NCBI RefSeq assembly: GCF_019297855.1
Contig: NZ_CP079194.1
Span: forward strand, 2,033,501-2,097,500
Reading direction: 5' to 3'
Source of the DNA: Gymnodinialimonas ceratoperidinii
GTDB lineage: Bacteria > Pseudomonadota > Alphaproteobacteria > Rhodobacterales > Rhodobacteraceae
Length of the DNA: 64,000 bases
Position 1 is the first letter of the stretch. Every line of letters begins with the position of its first letter. Positions 2,876 to 23,900 of this stretch are shown one piece after another. Made by a program: the position numbers and the translations under genes. The notes under the pieces are model-generated. The model saw only the letters and a list, made by a program, of their open reading frames with translations. It did no database searches and was not told where the DNA came from.

Positions 2876-3577
2876 CTAATGCCGGGTCTCAAACCGCTGC
2901 AGGACCTGCATTCCGGTGGCGATCGCCGGTCCGATGCCGAGCGCGAAGAGCACTGTGCCGAGGCCGAGGGTGCCGCCAAGTGCCCATCCGATGGCGACCA
3001 CGGTCAGCTCCAATGCCGTGCGGACCAGCGCGATGGGCAGGCCGGTGACGGCTTGCAGGCCGGTCATCAGCCCGTCACGGGGGCCGGGGCCGAGGTTGGC
3101 GACAAGGTAGATCGCCGCGCCGAAGCCGGTCACCATGACGCCGACGAGGGCCAGCAGGGCGTTGGCGGCGTAGCTTTCGAAAGCAGGCAGGTAAGGCAGG
3201 AGGTATTCCAGCACCAGCGCGATGATGATCGCGTTCAGGATCGTCCCTAGGCCGGGCGTCTGCTTCAGCGGCACCCAGAGCGCCAGCAGCGACGCGCTGA
3301 TCACGAAGGTCGCAAAGCCGAGGCTCCAGCCGGTCACCTGCGTCACGCCCTCGGCGAACAGCGTCCAGGGGCTGACGCCAACACCTGCCGTGACCAGAAG
3401 CGCCTCGCCGGTGCCGAAGACGACGAGGCCGATGACGAGGAACACCAGCGAGGCCGCGGGCGGCCGCAGGGTGAAGGCCCGGGGCGCGCTCCAGCGGAGT
3501 CTCGGGACCGAGGTGACCGAAAGAAAGCTCAAGGCGCGGATCCATGCATGAGAAGCGTATGCGACACTCGTGCACAT
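2876..3577 (-). CDS. YczE/YitT-type integral membrane protein
   Basis: This 233-residue protein is mostly hydrophobic, with about five or six membrane segments. It carries patterns of the YczE/YyaS family: a GVGVSPWT-like stretch after the first helix and ANLGPGPRDGLM in the middle. The family has no settled biochemical function. The gene follows the isochorismatase-type hydrolase by 35 nt on the same strand, and that gene follows the SugE/Gdx exporter by 18 nt, so all three are probably read from the riboswitch-controlled message starting near 4.65 kb. The start is uncertain: the annotated ATG has no clear ribosome site, and an internal TTG at 3532 would also give a family-like N-terminus. 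Confidence 0.72.
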   Translation of the reverse strand: MCTSVAYASHAWIRALSFLSVTSVPRLRWSAPRAFTLRPPAASLVFLVIGLVVFGTGEALLVTAGVGVSPWTLFAEGVTQVTGWSLGFATFVISASLLALWVPLKQTPGLGTILNAIIIALVLEYLLPYLPAFESYAANALLALVGVMVTGFGAAIYLVANLGPGPRDGLMTGLQAVTGLPIALVRTALELTVVAIGWALGGTLGLGTVLFALGIGPAIATGMQVLQRFETRH

Positions 3578-3612
3578 TTATGCCGGGAACGGCAAGGCAG
3601 CGCCATCGGGCC

Positions 3613-4245
3613 TCAGCCCGCGGCCCGATGGTCGGCCAGCGCGGCAATCACCCTTTCGCGGCTTTGGACCGCCCCGGTCTGCAAATATTCCATCGCGCGC
3701 AAGGCGGCCTCATGCGCCTCGAGCGAGGAGCCGCCGACGCAATCCTCCACCACGCGGCAGAAGTAGTCGGACTGGTGCGCGTCGACGAAGGTGTAATGGA
3801 CGCAGACATCGGTCAACCCGCCGCAGAGGATCAGCGTGTCGATCTTCAGGCCACGCAGCAGGATCTCGAAATCGGTGCCGAAGAAGGCCGAGTAGCGGCG
3901 TTTGGGGATCACGTAGTCGCCGCGGCGGAAGCCCATCTCCTCCTTCGCCACTTCGGTGCGGGGGTCGCCTTCGAGGCAGTGGATATCCTCGTCGCCGTCC
4001 AGCTCGCGGCCGAAATCCACGAGGTCGGGGCGGTGCACCTCCTGGATGAAGATCACCGGAACGCCCGCGTCATGGGCGGCGTCCACGAGGCCTCGGGCGG
4101 CCTCCATCCGCGCGCGGTAGCCGGGCATGTTGTCGATCGAACGCTCGGCGCTGTCGTCGATGAAGGTGCTCTTCTGAATGTCGATCACGATCAGCGCCGG
4201 GCGCCCCTCGATCAAGGCACGGGCCGTTTTGGTTTTCGTCGTCAT
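3613..4245 (-). CDS. Isochorismatase-family cysteine hydrolase
   Basis: This 210-residue alpha/beta hydrolase belongs to the cysteine hydrolase family that includes nicotinamidases, N-carbamoylsarcosine amidases and biuret hydrolases. The triad is visible as D22 (IVIDIQ), K115 (IPKRRYSAF) and the nucleophile C148 (GGLTDVCVHYT). Family members usually cut C-N bonds of small amides or ureas, but the substrate cannot be told from sequence. A good ribosome site (AAAGGA) precedes the ATG. The gene lies 18 nt after a SugE/Gdx guanidinium-exporter-like gene that has a guanidine-II riboswitch in front. A role on a guanidine- or urea-like compound is therefore a reasonable inference, but unproven. Confidence 0.85.
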   Translation of the reverse strand: MTTKTKTARALIEGRPALIVIDIQKSTFIDDSAERSIDNMPGYRARMEAARGLVDAAHDAGVPVIFIQEVHRPDLVDFGRELDGDEDIHCLEGDPRTEVAKEEMGFRRGDYVIPKRRYSAFFGTDFEILLRGLKIDTLILCGGLTDVCVHYTFVDAHQSDYFCRVVEDCVGGSSLEAHEAALRAMEYLQTGAVQSRERVIAALADHRAAG

Positions 4246-4263
4246 GTCTTGCGTCCTTTCGGG

Positions 4264-4581
4264 TCAATGGGCGTCGGCGCCGAGCAGGACCATGCCTGCC
4301 ACGAGCAGGAGGACTCCTGCCACGGTACTCGCGCCGATTGTCTGGTTGAAGAAGAGCACGCCCACGGCGACCGAGCCGACGGAGCCGATGCCGGTCCAGA
4401 TCGGGTAGGCAATGCCGAGGGGCAACCGCGCCATGGCGGCGTAGAGCGCCAGCAGGCTCGCGGCCATGGTGATGAGGGTGAGGATGCCGAGCATCCAGCC
4501 GCCGCCAAGCCCGAGGCGTTTGAGCCCTGCGGCCCAGGCCACTTCCAGAGCGCCGGCGATGAAGAGATAAATCCAGGCCAC
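4264..4581 (-). CDS. sugE: SugE/Gdx-type small multidrug resistance (guanidinium) exporter
   Basis: This 105-residue protein has four membrane helices and the SugE/Gdx signature rather than that of EmrE. The N-terminus reads MAWIYLFIAGALEVAWAAG, which places the essential glutamate at E13 and the Gdx tryptophan at W16, and a GTAY-like segment (LPLGIAYPIWTGIG) follows. Gdx proteins export guanidinium in exchange for protons. The start is a GTG at 4581 with a very strong ribosome site (GGGGGAGG, 4587-4594); the upstream ATG in the same frame would run through the riboswitch and is rejected. Two ACGA-loop hairpins directly upstream support guanidine control. Confidence 0.87.
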   Translation of the reverse strand: MAWIYLFIAGALEVAWAAGLKRLGLGGGWMLGILTLITMAASLLALYAAMARLPLGIAYPIWTGIGSVGSVAVGVLFFNQTIGASTVAGVLLLVAGMVLLGADAH

Positions 4582-4597
4582 GTCGACCTCCCCCAAT

Positions 4598-4645
4598 TGC
4601 AGGTCGTCCTGGCACATGCCCAATCTGCGGCCGGGTCGTCCCGGC
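4598..4645 (-). promoter_or_regulatory. Guanidine-II (mini-ykkC) riboswitch upstream of sugE
   Basis: On the minus strand two hairpins with identical ACGA loops lie in a row: a perfect 6-bp stem GCCGGG-ACGA-CCCGGC at 4645-4630, then CAGG-ACGA-CCTG at 4611-4600, which can extend by three pairs past a single bulged G. About 18 nt separate them. The second hairpin ends 3-5 nt before the Shine-Dalgarno of sugE (4594-4587). Paired hairpins with ACGR loops just ahead of a ribosome site are the defining layout of the guanidine-II class, which acts on translation. The downstream gene is of the family this class normally controls. Confidence 0.88.
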
Positions 4646-4706
4646 GGGCGGTATCGGTCTAGTCTAGTATTGGCGGGCGCGCGGTTCAAGTCCGGCCCGG
4701 ATGCGC

Positions 4707-7202: not shown

Positions 7203-7583
7203 CTAAAACGCCTCGCAGGTGCCGAAAAATGTGGTTGTGCGGGTCGGACCGTCGGTCCGGTGGAATGTCACCGTCGCAAGCAGGTCCGGGGTGATCGTCA
7301 TCAGCTCTCCCATCGCGTGGATGCCGGCGCTGGCGTAGGCCGCGGGCAGGGCGTCGGGTGCGCTGAGGCGGGTCGCCGGTCGGTCCCCGGAGGGCGAGGA
7401 GAGAAACAGCTCTCCGGCGTGATCGGCGGGCAGGATCTGGTAGAGGTCATCGATCGCGAAGCAGTCCTGACCGTCGCATTGCACGGTCATCTGGCAGGCC
7501 CAGGGCTCGGCGCGCGCGGGCAGGGCCAGCGACACGGCGAGCAGGACCGCCGGAAGGCAGGAGGCTGCGGCGGCGCGGTTCAT
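7203..7583 (-). CDS. Small secreted cysteine-pattern protein, copy 4 (unknown function)
   Basis: I do not recognise a named family. The 126-residue product has a clear Sec signal peptide ending near ARA (about residue 25) and then the mature motif WACQMTVQCDGQDC, that is C-x5-C-x4-C. The C-terminus ends in FFGTCEAF, giving a fourth cysteine. Three neighbours upstream share this plan (C-x5-C-x5-C plus a single cysteine near the end), so they look like tandem paralogues with two possible disulfides each. Its ATG overlaps the stop of the preceding copy by 4 nt. A periplasmic location is inferred from the signal peptide. It lies between livF and livH in the transporter locus. Confidence 0.7.
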   Translation of the reverse strand: MNRAAAASCLPAVLLAVSLALPARAEPWACQMTVQCDGQDCFAIDDLYQILPADHAGELFLSSPSGDRPATRLSAPDALPAAYASAGIHAMGELMTITPDLLATVTFHRTDGPTRTTTFFGTCEAF

Positions 7584-7981
7584 TCGGCAGGCTCGCAGGT
7601 GCCGATGCCGGTCACGACGCGGGTGCCGGCCTGCGGCTGGTGGCCGGTGACGACCACGCGGCCGGTGCTGTCGAAGGTCACCATCTGGCTCGATTGCGCG
7701 CGGGTGTTGCGGAACATCAGGGTGCGGACGCGCACCGGCTCGACGGAATCGGCGGGCGGCAGGTAATCGGCGATCAGCTCGTAATCAGACGGCAGATCGG
7801 CGTTCCAGTTCACCTGCCAGCCGTCCGAGCCCTCGACGATTGTGATCGTCTGATCCCAGTCCCGGCAGGCACCGGCATCGGGGCAGAGGATCGCCAGATC
7901 GCAGGCGAGGTTCACGGGCGCATCCTGTGCCTGCGCGGCCAGCGGGGTGATCAGAAGGAGGGCGAGGGCAGAAAGGCGCAT
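7580..7981 (-). CDS. Small secreted cysteine-pattern protein, copy 3 (unknown function)
   Basis: This 133-residue protein is of no family I recognise. The signal peptide MRLSALALLLITPLAAQAQ is followed by LACDLAILCPDAGAC (C-x5-C-x5-C), and the C-terminus is GIGTCEPAE. The start at 7981 was chosen because it gives the signal peptide; the frame opens 23 codons earlier, inside the intergenic gap. It is one of four adjacent paralogue-like genes. The gap to the previous copy (about 65 nt) is the only real spacing inside the cluster, whereas the next gene overlaps by 4 nt. Confidence 0.7.
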   Translation of the reverse strand: MRLSALALLLITPLAAQAQDAPVNLACDLAILCPDAGACRDWDQTITIVEGSDGWQVNWNADLPSDYELIADYLPPADSVEPVRVRTLMFRNTRAQSSQMVTFDSTGRVVVTGHQPQAGTRVVTGIGTCEPAE

Positions 7982-8046
7982 GGGCGGTATCTTTCGAAGA
8001 GCGGCAGGGCGGCGCGAAGCGGAGGCGGCAACAGGGGCGAGGGCGG

Positions 8047-8418
8047 TCATGCGGCAGGCTCGCAGATGCCGAAGTAGGAGACGGATTGCACCCGGCCCGC
8101 GCTGTCGATGTCCTGTTGTGTCATCACCGCTTCGCCGGTGCCCGATACGCTGAGCAGGATCGTGCCGCCGGGCCCGGTCTCGAACAGGCCCGCGAAGGCG
8201 GGGGCGTCAATATGGGGCAGGGGCGTGCCGATGACCTCCTGCTCGGGCGTGGTAAAGCGCAGGCTGTCTTCGGTCACGTCGAAGCGGAAGGGCACGCCGT
8301 CGTGGGTCTGGCAATCGGTGAGCGGGCTGCAGATCGTCGTGAAGGTGCACGCCAGCCCGGCCGCCGTGGCGGGCGCGGGCAGCAGGAGCGCGGCGGCGGA
8401 GAGGATGAGCGGCTTCAT
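8047..8418 (-). CDS. Small secreted cysteine-pattern protein, copy 2 (unknown function)
   Basis: This 123-residue protein has the signal peptide MKPLILSAAALLLPAPATA, then GLACTFTTICSPLTDC (C-x5-C-x5-C) and a C-terminal YFGICEPAA. The ending closely matches copy 3 (GTCEPAE) and copy 4 (GTCEAF), which supports a common origin. Its ATG overlaps the stop of copy 1 by 4 nt. A longer same-frame opening reaches 8958 but would run through copy 1 and livF, so the signal-peptide start was chosen. No function can be assigned. Confidence 0.7.
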   Translation of the reverse strand: MKPLILSAAALLLPAPATAAGLACTFTTICSPLTDCQTHDGVPFRFDVTEDSLRFTTPEQEVIGTPLPHIDAPAFAGLFETGPGGTILLSVSGTGEAVMTQQDIDSAGRVQSVSYFGICEPAA

Positions 8419-8846
8419 GGCGCGACCTCGGTGCAGGAGAGCACGAAGGATTGCGGCCGCAGACGGGGCGCGCCGGTTTCGGGGTCGGCGGTCTGGACGT
8501 GGAGCGCAAAGCGGCGCGCCGTGCCGTCGGACGGAAGATCGACGAGGAAATTGCGCCGCGCCTCGGAAATCGCGGGCAGGGGCAGGGCCGCGTCGAGGCT
8601 CGGGTAGCGATCGACCTCGGAGAGATCGGACCAGTCCGGCCCCATGCGGGTGCCGCGGGCGTCGATCTGCAAGGCGGTGTCGCCAAGGGCAGGCATCGCG
8701 CCGCAGTGGCCGGCGGGGGTGCAGACCTCGTTCATCTGGCACAGCCCGCGATAGGGCGCGGGGCTGGTTTCCAGCTCCAGCTCGGCCAGCGCGGGAGAGG
8801 CCACGCAAAGCGCGGTGAGCGCGGTGCGAAGCCCCGCCATTAGCAT
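8415..8846 (-). CDS. Small secreted cysteine-pattern protein, copy 1 (unknown function)
   Basis: The 143-residue product has a signal peptide ending at about ALA (residue 21) and then GLCQMNEVCTPAGHC, again C-x5-C-x5-C, with the last cysteine in FVLSCTEVAP at the end. CQMNEVC is close to CQMTVQC of copy 4. The ATG overlaps the livF stop; a second ATG two codons later would give the same signal peptide. It is the most diverged and longest of the four and directly follows the transporter ATPase genes, so it is probably on the same message. Confidence 0.7.
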   Translation of the reverse strand: MLMAGLRTALTALCVASPALAELELETSPAPYRGLCQMNEVCTPAGHCGAMPALGDTALQIDARGTRMGPDWSDLSEVDRYPSLDAALPLPAISEARRNFLVDLPSDGTARRFALHVQTADPETGAPRLRPQSFVLSCTEVAP

Positions 8847-19799: not shown

Positions 19800-20720
19800 T
19801 CAAGGATTGAGCACCGGCGAAGCCTCGGCCTCGCGCTGGCGTCTGCGGTAGGCAATGACCTCTTCCGAGACGAAATCGCGAAACACTTCGATCCGGCGCG
19901 AGTGGCGCAATTCTTCGGGGTAGGCGAGAAACACCGGGACTTCCGCCGATTCGATCTCGGGCAGGACGCGGACGAGGTCCGGGAAATCCTGGGTCAGGTA
20001 ATCGGGCAATACGCCGACACCCAGATCGTTGATCACCGCCTGCAATACGCCGAAATAGTTATTCACCGACAGCGTTGAGCCAACGTCATAGCTCATCAAT
20101 TCGCGCACCAATATGGCGCCTGCGGAAACCTGCGCGGCGGAGGCGTTCTGCGAGATCAGGCGATGGGTGCCGAGATCGCGGATGCTGGCGGGCATCCCGT
20201 TCTTCTCGATGTAGGAGGGCGTCGCGTAGAGGCGCATGTTGATCGTCATCAGGCGACGGCGGATCAGGTCGGCCTGCGACGGCTCTTTCATGCGGATTGC
20301 CACGTCGGCCTCGCGCATCGGCAGGTCGAGCAGGCGTTCCTCCAGCATCAGGTCGATCTTGAGGTCGGGATATTTCTCGTAGAGCGCGGGCAGGCGGGGT
20401 GCGAGCCAGAGCGAGCCGAACCCGATGGTCGTGGTCACGCGCAGCTCGCCGAAGACTTCTTCCTCGCTGTCGCGAATCCGCGCCGAGGCCGCGTCGAGCC
20501 GCTTGGTCATGTGCCGCGTGGCGTCGTAGAGAAGTTCTCCCTGCTCGGTCAGGATCAGACCGCGGGCGTGGCGGTGGAACAGCGTGGTGTCTAACCCTTC
20601 CTCCAGCGCGCGGATCTGACGGGAGACGGCGGATTGCGACAGGTGCAAGATATCGCCCGCATGGGTCAGTGACCCCGCAGAAGCGACCGCATGAAATATG
20701 CGCAGTTTATCCCAGTCCAT
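19800..20720 (-). CDS. LysR family transcriptional regulator
   Basis: This 306-residue LysR-type regulator has an N-terminal winged helix-turn-helix (LRIFHAVASAGSLTHAGDILHLSQSAVSRQIRALEE, about 5-41) followed by the substrate-binding-like effector domain from about residue 90. It is transcribed away from the indolepyruvate:ferredoxin oxidoreductase gene, the usual arrangement of a LysR regulator and its target. A T-N11-A dyad lies in the promoter of that gene at 20878-20896. The effector is unknown. Confidence 0.93.
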   Translation of the reverse strand: MDWDKLRIFHAVASAGSLTHAGDILHLSQSAVSRQIRALEEGLDTTLFHRHARGLILTEQGELLYDATRHMTKRLDAASARIRDSEEEVFGELRVTTTIGFGSLWLAPRLPALYEKYPDLKIDLMLEERLLDLPMREADVAIRMKEPSQADLIRRRLMTINMRLYATPSYIEKNGMPASIRDLGTHRLISQNASAAQVSAGAILVRELMSYDVGSTLSVNNYFGVLQAVINDLGVGVLPDYLTQDFPDLVRVLPEIESAEVPVFLAYPEELRHSRRIEVFRDFVSEEVIAYRRRQREAEASPVLNP

Positions 20721-20872
20721 TCCGAGCCCTTCCTCGAGTTAGCGTTAACGTAGTGTGCAATGCTGCAGGTGCAAAGCTTTTTAGGGGAACGGTGTAGATC
20801 AAGGGTTAACACGGCACGCGCAAGAGCTAACCCGCCGCGGGGCGCTGAAAATCCCGGCAATGCGCAGAAGAG

Positions 20873-20901
20873 TGGACAGGTCAGCAATTATGACCTATAA
20901 G
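20873..20901 (+). promoter_or_regulatory. Promoter of the indolepyruvate oxidoreductase gene with operator dyad in the spacer
   Basis: TGGACA (20873-20878) and TATAAG (20896-20901) are separated by exactly 17 nt, a good sigma-70-type promoter. The spacer is occupied by a perfect inverted repeat AGGTCA-N7-TGACCT (20878-20896), which contains the LysR-type T-N11-A core. The start codon is 57 nt downstream of the -10. Confidence 0.6.
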
Positions 20902-20957
20902 GGAGGCAGACATTTCATCGGGCGCGATCGGGCCCGTTTGACGCACGGGAGGTCCCT

Positions 20958-23900
20958 ATGGGAGTGCAGCAAGTCTCGCTAAAAGATAAATTCGACCTGA
21001 CGAAATCCCCGGTTCTGCTCAACGGCACACAGGCCTTGGTGCGGCTGATGCTGATGCAGAAGGCCCGCGACGAGGCAGCCGGGTTGAACACGGCAGGTTT
21101 TGTCAGCGGCTATCGCGGCTCGCCCCTTGGCGGGCTCGACCTGCAGATGTCGCGTTCCGAAAAGGTGCTGGCGGAGGCGGATGTGACGTTCAAGCCGGGC
21201 CTGAACGAGGACCTTGCGGCGACGGCGCATTGGGGCACGCAGACCGCGGAACTGCGCGGCGAGGGCAAGTTCGATGGCGTCTTCGGCCTCTGGTACGGCA
21301 AGGGGCCGGGCGTCGACCGCACCGGCGACGTGATGCGCCACGCCAACATGGCGGGCACCTCGAAGCATGGCGGCGTGATCATGGCGATGGGCGATGACCA
21401 CACCGGCGAAAGCTCGACCGTGTGCCACCAGTCCGACTGGGCGATGGTCGACGTGCATATGCCCGTTCTCAGCCCCGCCGGCGTGCAGGAAATCCTCGAT
21501 TACGGCATCTATGGCTATGCGCTCAGCCGCTATGCGGGCGTCTGGGTGGGCCTGAAGTGCGTGAAGGACAATGTGGAGGCCACGGCGGTGGTCGACGCGC
21601 GGCCCGAGCGGATGGAGCTGGTCGAGCCCGAGTTCGACATGCCCGAGGGCGGGTTGAACATCCGTCTGGGCGATCACTGGATCCCGCAGGAGGAGCGCCT
21701 GCTGGAATACAAGCGCCATGCGGCGGAGGCCTTCGCCCATGCCAACAAGATCGACAAGCGCGTGCTTGGCCAAGCGGGGGCCAAGATCGGCCTCGTGGCG
21801 GCGGGCAAGAACTGGCTCGATCTGGTCTCGGCGCTCGATGCGCTCGGGATCGACGAGGAAACCGCCCGGTCGATGGGGATCACGACCTACAAGGTCGGGC
21901 AGGTCTGGCCGCTGGACATGCGCGGCTTCCATGATTGGGCCGACGGGCTGGACCTGATCGTGGTGGTCGAGGAGAAGCGCAAGCTGATCGAGGTGCAGGT
22001 CAAGGAGGCAATTTTCGACGACCGCCGGGGCCGCCGCGTCTATGGCTACAAGGACGGCCATGGCAACACGCTGTTCCCGCAGAAATTCGCGCTCGATCCC
22101 GCTGATATCGCGGTGAAACTGGGCAATATCCTGATCGAGGAAGGCTGCGCCACCGAGCGTACCCGCCAAGGCATCGCGACGGTGAAAGAGGCGCGCCGCG
22201 CCTCCAACGCGCCGGATCTGGCCAAGCGGGTGCCGTGGTTCTGCTCGGGCTGTCCGCACAATACCTCCACGCGGGTGCCGGAAGGCTCGCGCTCGGGGGC
22301 GGGGATCGGCTGCCACTTCATGGCGAAATGGATGGACCGCGAGACCGAGGCCTATACCCACATGGGCGGCGAAGGGGTGAACTGGGTCGGCGAGAGCCTG
22401 TTCTCCAAGCGCGACCACATGTTCCAGAACCTGGGCGAGGGGACCTATAACCACTCGGGCATCCTCGCGATCCGGGCCGCCTTGGCCGCGGGCACCAACA
22501 TCACCTACAAGATCCTGTTCAACGATGCCGTGGCGATGACCGGCGGGCAGGATAACGAGGGCGATCTGGACCCTGCGCGCATTGCCCGCGAGATCCGCGC
22601 CATGGGCGTGAAGAACATCGCGCTGGTCTATGATCCGAAGGAAGAAGTCGATTTCGCGGCCTTCCCGAAAGACTGCGAGCGGTTCGAGCGCGACGACCTG
22701 ATGCAGGTGCAGGAGAAATACCGCAAGCTTGAGGGCGTGAGCGCGATCATCTACGTGCAGACCTGTGCCGCCGAGAAGCGCCGCCGCCGCAAGCGCGGCA
22801 CTTTCCCCGACATTGACAAGCGCGTCTTCATCAACACCGACGTCTGCGAGGGCTGTGGCGATTGCGGCGTGCAGTCGAACTGCGTCTCCATCGTGCCGGT
22901 CGAGACCGAGTTGGGCCGCAAGCGGGCGATCGACCAGTCGACCTGCAACAAGGATTTCTCCTGCCTGCAGGGCTTCTGCCCTTCGTTCGTGACACTTGAA
23001 GGCGCCGCGATCCGCAAGGAGGCCTCGGCCTCGGTCGACCTGAAGGGCCTGCCGGACCCGGTGCTGCCCGAGATCGATGGCACCCACAACATGCTGGTGA
23101 CCGGCGTGGGCGGCACCGGCGTGGTGACCATCGGCGCGGTGATGGCGCAGGCGGCACAGCTCGACGGCAAGGGCGTCGGCATGATCGAGATGGCAGGACT
23201 GGCCCAGAAGGGCGGCGCCGTGGCGATCCATTTGAGGCTGGCGAACCGGCCTGAGGACATCTCGGCGATCCGCGTGGGCGCGGGCGAGGCGGATGCGGTG
23301 ATTGGCGGCGACCTCGTCGTGACCGGCGGCGCAAAGACGCTGGCGCAGATGACCACCGGGCGCACCGGTGCGGCGGTCAACAGCCACGAGATCACCACGG
23401 GGGATTTCACCCTCGACACCGAATTCACCATTCCGGGCAAGGATCTGGAAGTGGCGCTGCAGGCGCGGCTGCGCGACAAGCTGGTGCTGTTCGATGCCAC
23501 CGAACTGGCGCGGGTGCTGTTGGGCGACTCGATCTATTCCAACATGATGACCTTCGGCGCGGCCTGGCAGATGGGGCTCGTGCCGCTCAGCCGCAAGGCG
23601 ATCATGGAAGCGATCAAGATGAACGGCGCGGCAGTGGAGGCCAACAAGGAGGCCTTCGAGATGGGCCGTTGGGCGGTGGAGAACCCCGAGCGCGTGAAGG
23701 GGCTGACCGAGCCCAACGTCGTGGCCCTGCCGAAATCGCTGGACGAGAAGATCGCCTTCCGCGAGGCGCACCTCGTGGCCTACCAGGGCAAGCGGCTGGC
23801 GAAACGCTACCGCAAGATGGTCGACAGCGTGCGCGACCCGCGCCTGAAGGAGGCCGTGGCCAAGGGCTACCACAAGCTCCTGTCCTACAAGGACGAATAC

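Follow-up and report, generated by a model that had tools for sequence, protein, structure and literature searches.

The window analysed here is a stretch of 64,000 nucleotides from the alphaproteobacterium Gymnodinialimonas ceratoperidinii (contig NZ_CP079194.1, positions 2,033,501 to 2,097,500). On its minus strand, which carries all features described below, a guanidine-II (mini-ykkC) riboswitch precedes a gene for a putative guanidinium exporter of the Gdx type, and this is followed by a gene for an isochorismatase-like cysteine hydrolase. The association of riboswitch and hydrolase is real and conserved, within Rhodobacterales-type genomes and in Roseibium and Labrenzia, and several relatives carry the riboswitch ahead of the hydrolase with no intact exporter gene between them. 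In its own right, the hydrolase appears to belong to the guanidine regulon.

The riboswitch and its two genes

The covariance model of the guanidine-II class (Rfam RF01068) matches positions 4599-4647 (minus strand) with 37.8 bits, above the gathering score of 32 and at E 0.00056 in a search of the whole window, and this is the one match found in the 3,621,968-base host genome. The aptamer contains two hairpins in tandem, P1 (4630-4645, GCCGGG-ACGA-CCCGGC) and P2 (4600-4611, CAGG-ACGA-CCTG), and both loops read ACGA, in line with the ACGR loops of the class. The ribosome site of the next gene (GGGGGAGGTCG, 4584-4594) begins close by, with 4 nucleotides between the end of the riboswitch and its G-run. 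A scan for sigma-70 promoters found none. An earlier reading of this DNA, made from the sequence alone, had proposed a guanidine-II riboswitch from two ACGA-loop hairpins lying 3-5 nucleotides ahead of the ribosome site. The hairpins, the spacing and, through the covariance model, the class itself are borne out, and the spacings between elements stand as described; the borders needed adjustment, as the riboswitch extends to 4647 and the exporter gene starts at a GTG at 4581.

Conservation of the structure was assessed in an alignment of 24 sequences, obtained from 25 riboswitch sites by leaving out one of two identical ones. The cells of P1 are 97.9% paired. Both-sided changes occur in three pairs of the P1/P2 structure, two of them in P1; nine cells carry such changes, more than in any of 500 shuffles, which ignore relatedness, whereas the number of pairs does not stand out in the same way.

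The gene next to the riboswitch (4264-4581, minus strand) encodes 105 amino acids and belongs to the small multidrug resistance (SMR) family (PF00893, 74.1 bits), of which it is the sole match in the host genome. The best matches among solved structures are the SMR proteins 8vxu and 6wk5, the latter of which we take to be Gdx-Clo, and the alignment is free of gaps. Translation and alignment to these two structures place E13, W16, S42 and W62 in the protein. In Gdx-Clo, residues of this type are reported to coordinate the guanidinyl group or to stabilise it, and W16 to distinguish Gdx from Qac proteins (PMC7695847). The score against the SugE equivalog model NF008512 is 59.3 bits with a cut-off of 126, so the protein is not filed as a SugE equivalog. 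Family and residues nevertheless agree with the SugE/Gdx-type gene proposed earlier, and point to a Gdx-type exporter that would transport guanidinium.

The hydrolase gene (3613-4245, minus strand, 210 amino acids) begins 18 nucleotides after gdx. Its product matches PF00857 (Isochorismatase) with 153.8 bits, and the AlphaFold2 model has an isochorismatase-type fold (predicted local distance difference test 87.2, predicted template modelling score 0.88). The triad D22, K115 and C148 is invariant in a 39-row alignment, riboswitch-unlinked homologues included. Fold, triad and spacing had all been predicted correctly. Linked and unlinked hydrolases differ mainly at both ends, in the region of residues 48-54 and in that of residues 96-109, and Lys25 is a suggestive, although not an exclusive, difference.

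Conservation of the linkage

The linkage was surveyed in a family sample of 248 genomes, 25 of which have a hydrolase homologue at E<=1e-40, and to these were added the best 80 of 329 loci from a scan of GTDB genomes. The resulting set comprises 110 loci with 101 distinct proteins, and 99 of the loci entered the tree; the 11 loci left out are nine duplicates, one partial match and one oddly long open reading frame. At least 450 nucleotides of upstream sequence are present in 97 of the 99 loci, and at least 1 kb downstream in 104 of the 110.

All seven nearest homologues in the family sample (at least 81% identity, window genome included) have the order riboswitch-gdx-hydrolase. Among the 99 deduplicated loci this order occurs in 16, while nine have the riboswitch and the hydrolase without an intact gdx between them, one has gdx and hydrolase with an altered P1 loop, and 73 have none of these arrangements. 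In the nine loci, which by record title belong to Ruegeria (six), Roseibium (two) and Labrenzia (one), the riboswitch pattern begins 52-202 nucleotides before the start of the hydrolase. The Labrenzia locus L142, read by eye, retains a short gdx-like start between riboswitch and hydrolase, so that the exporter has probably been lost there and the riboswitch kept. The altered locus (L133, Yoonia) has a riboswitch-like leader some 0.4 kb ahead of the hydrolase, with ACGU rather than ACGR in the P1 loop, and the covariance model gave no match to this leader at the gathering score. Of the 16 loci with gdx, 10 reach the gathering score, five more have E<=0.001 and one (L131) was recognised by pattern only; the corresponding figures for the nine without gdx are four, three and two (L142 and L143).

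The 764,142 bases of 80 hydrolase loci contain 26 occurrences of a loose two-hairpin pattern, and at 22 of the loci it lies close ahead of the hydrolase gene or the accompanying gdx. The remaining matches (L139, L152, L157 and L179) look like background, and the placement of the riboswitch at hydrolase loci is more than chance. As a separate observation, the hydrolase protein of L157, a record titled Oceanobacillus sp. HTM 045, is identical to that of L066 from the window's own family, and the title looks mislabelled.

The linkage labels cluster on the tree: the unlinked label requires 8 changes compared with a shuffle mean of 23.3, and none of 500 shuffles was as low. The riboswitch-linked rows do not group in a single clade, and a good many of the forks are weak; for this reason gains and losses were not counted. 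An SMR gene lies within about 5 to 7 kb of the hydrolase at 20 of 108 loci. At two of the loci surveyed (L070 and L112) a canonical gdx is divergent from the hydrolase, in L070 with a riboswitch at the gathering score.

The strongest single argument for the hydrolase as a guanidine-regulon gene comes from genomes with two riboswitches. A genome-wide search, for which 50 of the 80 GTDB loci were entered and 49 genomes searched, found a site at E<=0.001 in 20 genomes and two sites in seven. Each of the seven has one site ahead of the hydrolase and the other ahead of a gdx that is about 40% identical to that of the window. The separate riboswitch on the hydrolase argues that it belongs to the guanidine regulon and is not a passenger of gdx. 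This result, together with the conserved linkage, upholds the proposal of the sequence-only reading that the hydrolase takes part in a guanidine response. In a wider class sample of 385 genomes, seven had hydrolase matches, nine in number and two of them already known; the seven new loci (five genomes) had neither the riboswitch pattern nor an SMR match within 1.5 kb.

Predicted switching mechanism

The minimum-energy fold of the leader keeps P1 and opens P2, in that CGACCT of P2 (4601-4606), the predicted anti-Shine-Dalgarno segment, pairs with AGGTCG of the ribosome site (4584-4589). Eight of 200 leader shuffles fold as stably as the native sequence. Across the 24 aligned sequences, 91.0% of the cells of this alternative helix are paired, and in two of the sequences its T-A pair is replaced by C-G. 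The complement to the ribosome site extends over 6 nucleotides in 12 of the 25 sites, 5 in five, 4 in six and 3 in one, and is absent from one. Its mean length is 4.96 nucleotides, compared with 2.96 for shuffled downstream sequence, a control that is lenient because the ribosome site itself favours AGG. The guanidine-II class is reported to act as a translational ON switch (PMC12186494), and the predicted pairing fits such a switch.

From these sequences and the known class we infer guanidine binding and switching, as well as the transport and hydrolysis that would follow. Without guanidine, the pairing of CGACCT with AGGTCG would hold the ribosome site closed and block initiation. With guanidine in both ACGA loops, P1 and P2 would dock, P2 would re-form and the ribosome site would be freed. 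More of the exporter and of the downstream cysteine amidohydrolase would then be made, as one unit.

The YczE-like gene and the end of the unit

A third gene, for a YczE-like membrane protein (2876-3577, minus strand), had also been assigned to the guanidine response. Its family (NF052291, 220.5 bits with a cut-off of 205) and the gap of 35 nucleotides from the hydrolase to its first ATG were read correctly; its start is uncertain, because residue 43 of the open reading frame is the first that the NF052291 match covers. Its place in the guanidine unit was rejected for missing conservation, a YczE-like gene being found near the hydrolase in one of the 110 loci, that of the window genome. A perfect 10-bp inverted repeat (3603-3631, minus strand) lies over the hydrolase stop codon and is a possible boundary of transcription or processing. 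The three genes could still form a single guanidine operon with YczE as a further transporter, as their common strand, the short gap and the lack of any terminator-like match with a T-run at the hydrolase-yczE junction would suggest; in view of the single locus and the strong repeat at the junction, we consider this very improbable. We regard the YczE-like gene as a probable bystander.

Elsewhere in the window (7203-8846, minus strand), several small secreted-looking open reading frames, some with similar GTCEP- or GICEP-like ends, lie between permease and ATPase genes of the branched-chain amino acid type of ATP-binding cassette (ABC) transporter.

Family and genomic context of the hydrolase

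The nearest functional comparisons within the superfamily are biuret hydrolase (BiuH) and guanylurea hydrolase (GuuH), which have in common with the window protein the isochorismatase-like fold, the Asp-Lys-Cys triad and an E-x-H-R-P motif. Biuret hydrolase was rejected as an identity: the window protein scores 75.7 bits with NF050097, far under the cut-off of 370, and has Tyr118 where BiuH has Lys145, a residue reported to be essential (PMC5806882). For guanylurea hydrolase the comparison was made with the cysteine hydrolase of Pseudomonas mendocina MET (plasmid CP098607, gene 20653-21288), reported to have guanylurea hydrolase activity (PMC9800807); its identity to the window protein of 33% does not indicate a close relationship. 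Tyr occupies the place of BiuH Lys145 in the strain MET enzyme also, as in 3eef, 3s2s and 3irv. Glu186 aligns with a Glu of GuuH at the place of BiuH Gln215, in a register made unsure by an adjacent gap in the 39-row alignment. The Foldseek/VIA matches of the model (maleamate amidase, RutB, BiuH, TrtA and nicotinamidase) lie close together, and with so many near-equal matches no substrate was assigned from structure.

The conserved neighbours of the riboswitch-free homologues were considered as a clue to the substrate and gave several unlike contexts, none decisive. Some adjoin ABC importers. A plasmid cluster of Roseovarius sp. W115 (L232, 3772-11208) comprises an ABC importer, the hydrolase, a DMT transporter, an ornithine cyclodeaminase, sugE, RidA and a second ornithine cyclodeaminase, and no riboswitch was found in this cluster at the gathering score; guanidine-IV variant riboswitches are reported to occur with ornithine cyclodeaminase-type genes (PMC9788692). 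A divergent set of hydrolases (L114, L115, L119, L120, L201-L203 and L205) has a PotD-like ABC importer and a 2-oxoglutarate/Fe(II) oxygenase nearby, families that were tested on L119.

The family sample holds 49 guanidine-II (RF01068) sites in 47 of the 248 genomes (L061-L108 and L001). The next gene encodes a PACE-type exporter (PF05232, chlorhexidine efflux transporter) at 24 sites, an SMR protein at 20 and a DUF1989 protein at two, and is unclassified at three; one PACE representative was scanned for PF05232 and the others were assigned by similarity. At L103 the riboswitch is followed by an open reading frame of 162 amino acids that is PACE-like by eye and falls below the similarity test. 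DUF1989 was also considered as a sign of a carboxyguanidine pathway and proved uninformative, with some member in all of 28 genomes. Allophanate hydrolase scores above the cut-off in the two comparison genomes that have DUF1989 genes after the riboswitch. Among the 26 hydrolase genomes, several of them drafts, it does so in five, and the window genome is not one of these. Four ureohydrolases (PF00491), assigned to family level only, are encoded in the window genome.

Possible substrates of the hydrolase

A urea- or amide-type substrate, as had been suggested from the sequence, is plausible for the hydrolase, and our best guess is a natural compound resembling an acyl- or carbamoyl-guanidine. 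The cysteine thiolate would cleave the amide or ureide bond of such a small guanidine-bearing compound, the cell would retain the ammonia or the acid, and Gdx would export the guanidine released. Export is proposed because the window genome has no allophanate hydrolase above the cut-off to complete the guanidine-carboxylase route. Taken as a whole, this account, with an ON switch, a Gdx exporter, a guanidine-regulon hydrolase that acts on a guanidine-bearing amide or ureide and YczE as a bystander, strikes us as evenly balanced between right and wrong. That the proteins are a new family of guanidine enzymes with the isochorismatase fold, which either free guanidine from a natural acyl- or carbamoyl-guanidine or destroy guanidine itself, is a tentative proposal that we place somewhat below that.

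Destruction of guanidine itself would make the protein a cysteine-dependent guanidinase, which would yield urea and ammonia; export and destruction would be co-induced and urease would finish the process. The urease alpha subunit is indeed encoded in 24 of the 26 hydrolase genomes, the window genome included, 21 of the 26 are without allophanate hydrolase above the cut-off, and in some relatives the hydrolase is under riboswitch control with no exporter in the same unit. However, attack on an amidine carbon is not known to us for any enzyme of the isochorismatase fold. The ABC importers beside some riboswitch-free homologues would rather suit an imported substrate, and the oxyanion pocket of BiuH is reported to accept an amide oxygen (PMC5806882), all of which makes a guanidinase improbable in our view. 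Much the same low probability attaches to a guanylurea hydrolase of the kind found in metformin degraders. GuuH belongs to the same superfamily and follows the same product logic, from guanylurea to guanidine (PMC9800807), both proteins have the E-x-H-R-P motif and the Tyr, and transport of guanylurea by a Gdx protein has been reported (PMC10829512). Yet the motif is also present in BiuH and the Tyr in the three structures named above, the BiuH model gives GuuH 271.4 bits and the window protein 75.7, and identity is low; moreover, a mainly man-made substrate explains poorly an association that spans over a dozen genus names.

A less remote alternative, although still an unlikely one, is that the hydrolase acts on a ureide or amide unrelated to guanidine chemistry and shares the regulation because guanidine signals a nitrogen-rich source such as algal or animal waste. 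The unlinked homologues do retain the active site, and some riboswitch-free ones lie near ABC importers, accompanied either by ornithine cyclodeaminase, RidA or both, or by a 2-oxoglutarate oxygenase. Against this stands the riboswitch kept directly on the hydrolase in two lineages, even where gdx has been lost or lies elsewhere. A guanidine-bearing amide or ureide is the substrate that we prefer.

Comparison with known guanidine systems

Enzymes reported to be tied to guanidine riboswitches include those of the carboxylase/deiminase/allophanate route, a nickel guanidinase and a methylguanidine pair (PMC12186494, PMC12508155). A survey of the mini-ykkC regulon lists transporters and urea and agmatine genes, and its main text makes no mention of a hydrolase, an isochorismatase or a nicotinamidase (PMC3766115). 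A search of the main texts in a library of open-access papers for guanidine riboswitches with isochorismatase, cysteine hydrolase or Ruegeria found no paper, in agreement with the sequence-only reading, which had taken the association to be undescribed; the link may be tabulated as a nameless hydrolase in the supplements, outside the scope of this search, of PMC3766115 or PMC2864571.

The natural sources and fates of guanidine have been described as an open question (PMC12186494). A conserved family under guanidine-II control, in genomes of which 21 of 26 lack allophanate hydrolase above the cut-off, offers a small-protein probe of the guanidine compounds that these bacteria meet. If the proposal of a new enzyme family is true, it would point to a source of guanidine in nature, or a sink for it, which riboswitch and exporter evolved to handle.

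Compared with the sugE-type guanidine-II/Gdx system of Escherichia coli, the window has in common an RF01068 match over the gathering score, the ACGA loops and an SMR gene with the Gdx residues. It differs in that its unit runs on into an isochorismatase-like hydrolase, and in Ruegeria and Roseibium the riboswitch serves the hydrolase without gdx. This suggests that guanidine-II regulation extends here to an undescribed guanidine enzyme of the isochorismatase fold. Riboswitch-controlled guanidine enzymes as such have precedents in the guanidine carboxylase operons (guanidine carboxylase, cgdAB and atzF) and in the methylguanidine operon of Vreelandella, the enzymes of which are reported to process guanidine or to funnel its derivatives into guanidine (PMC12508155). 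The hydrolase belongs to another enzyme family, and in its genomes the carboxylase route was followed through allophanate hydrolase, present in the five of 26 given above, and not through guanidine carboxylase, which was not searched for.
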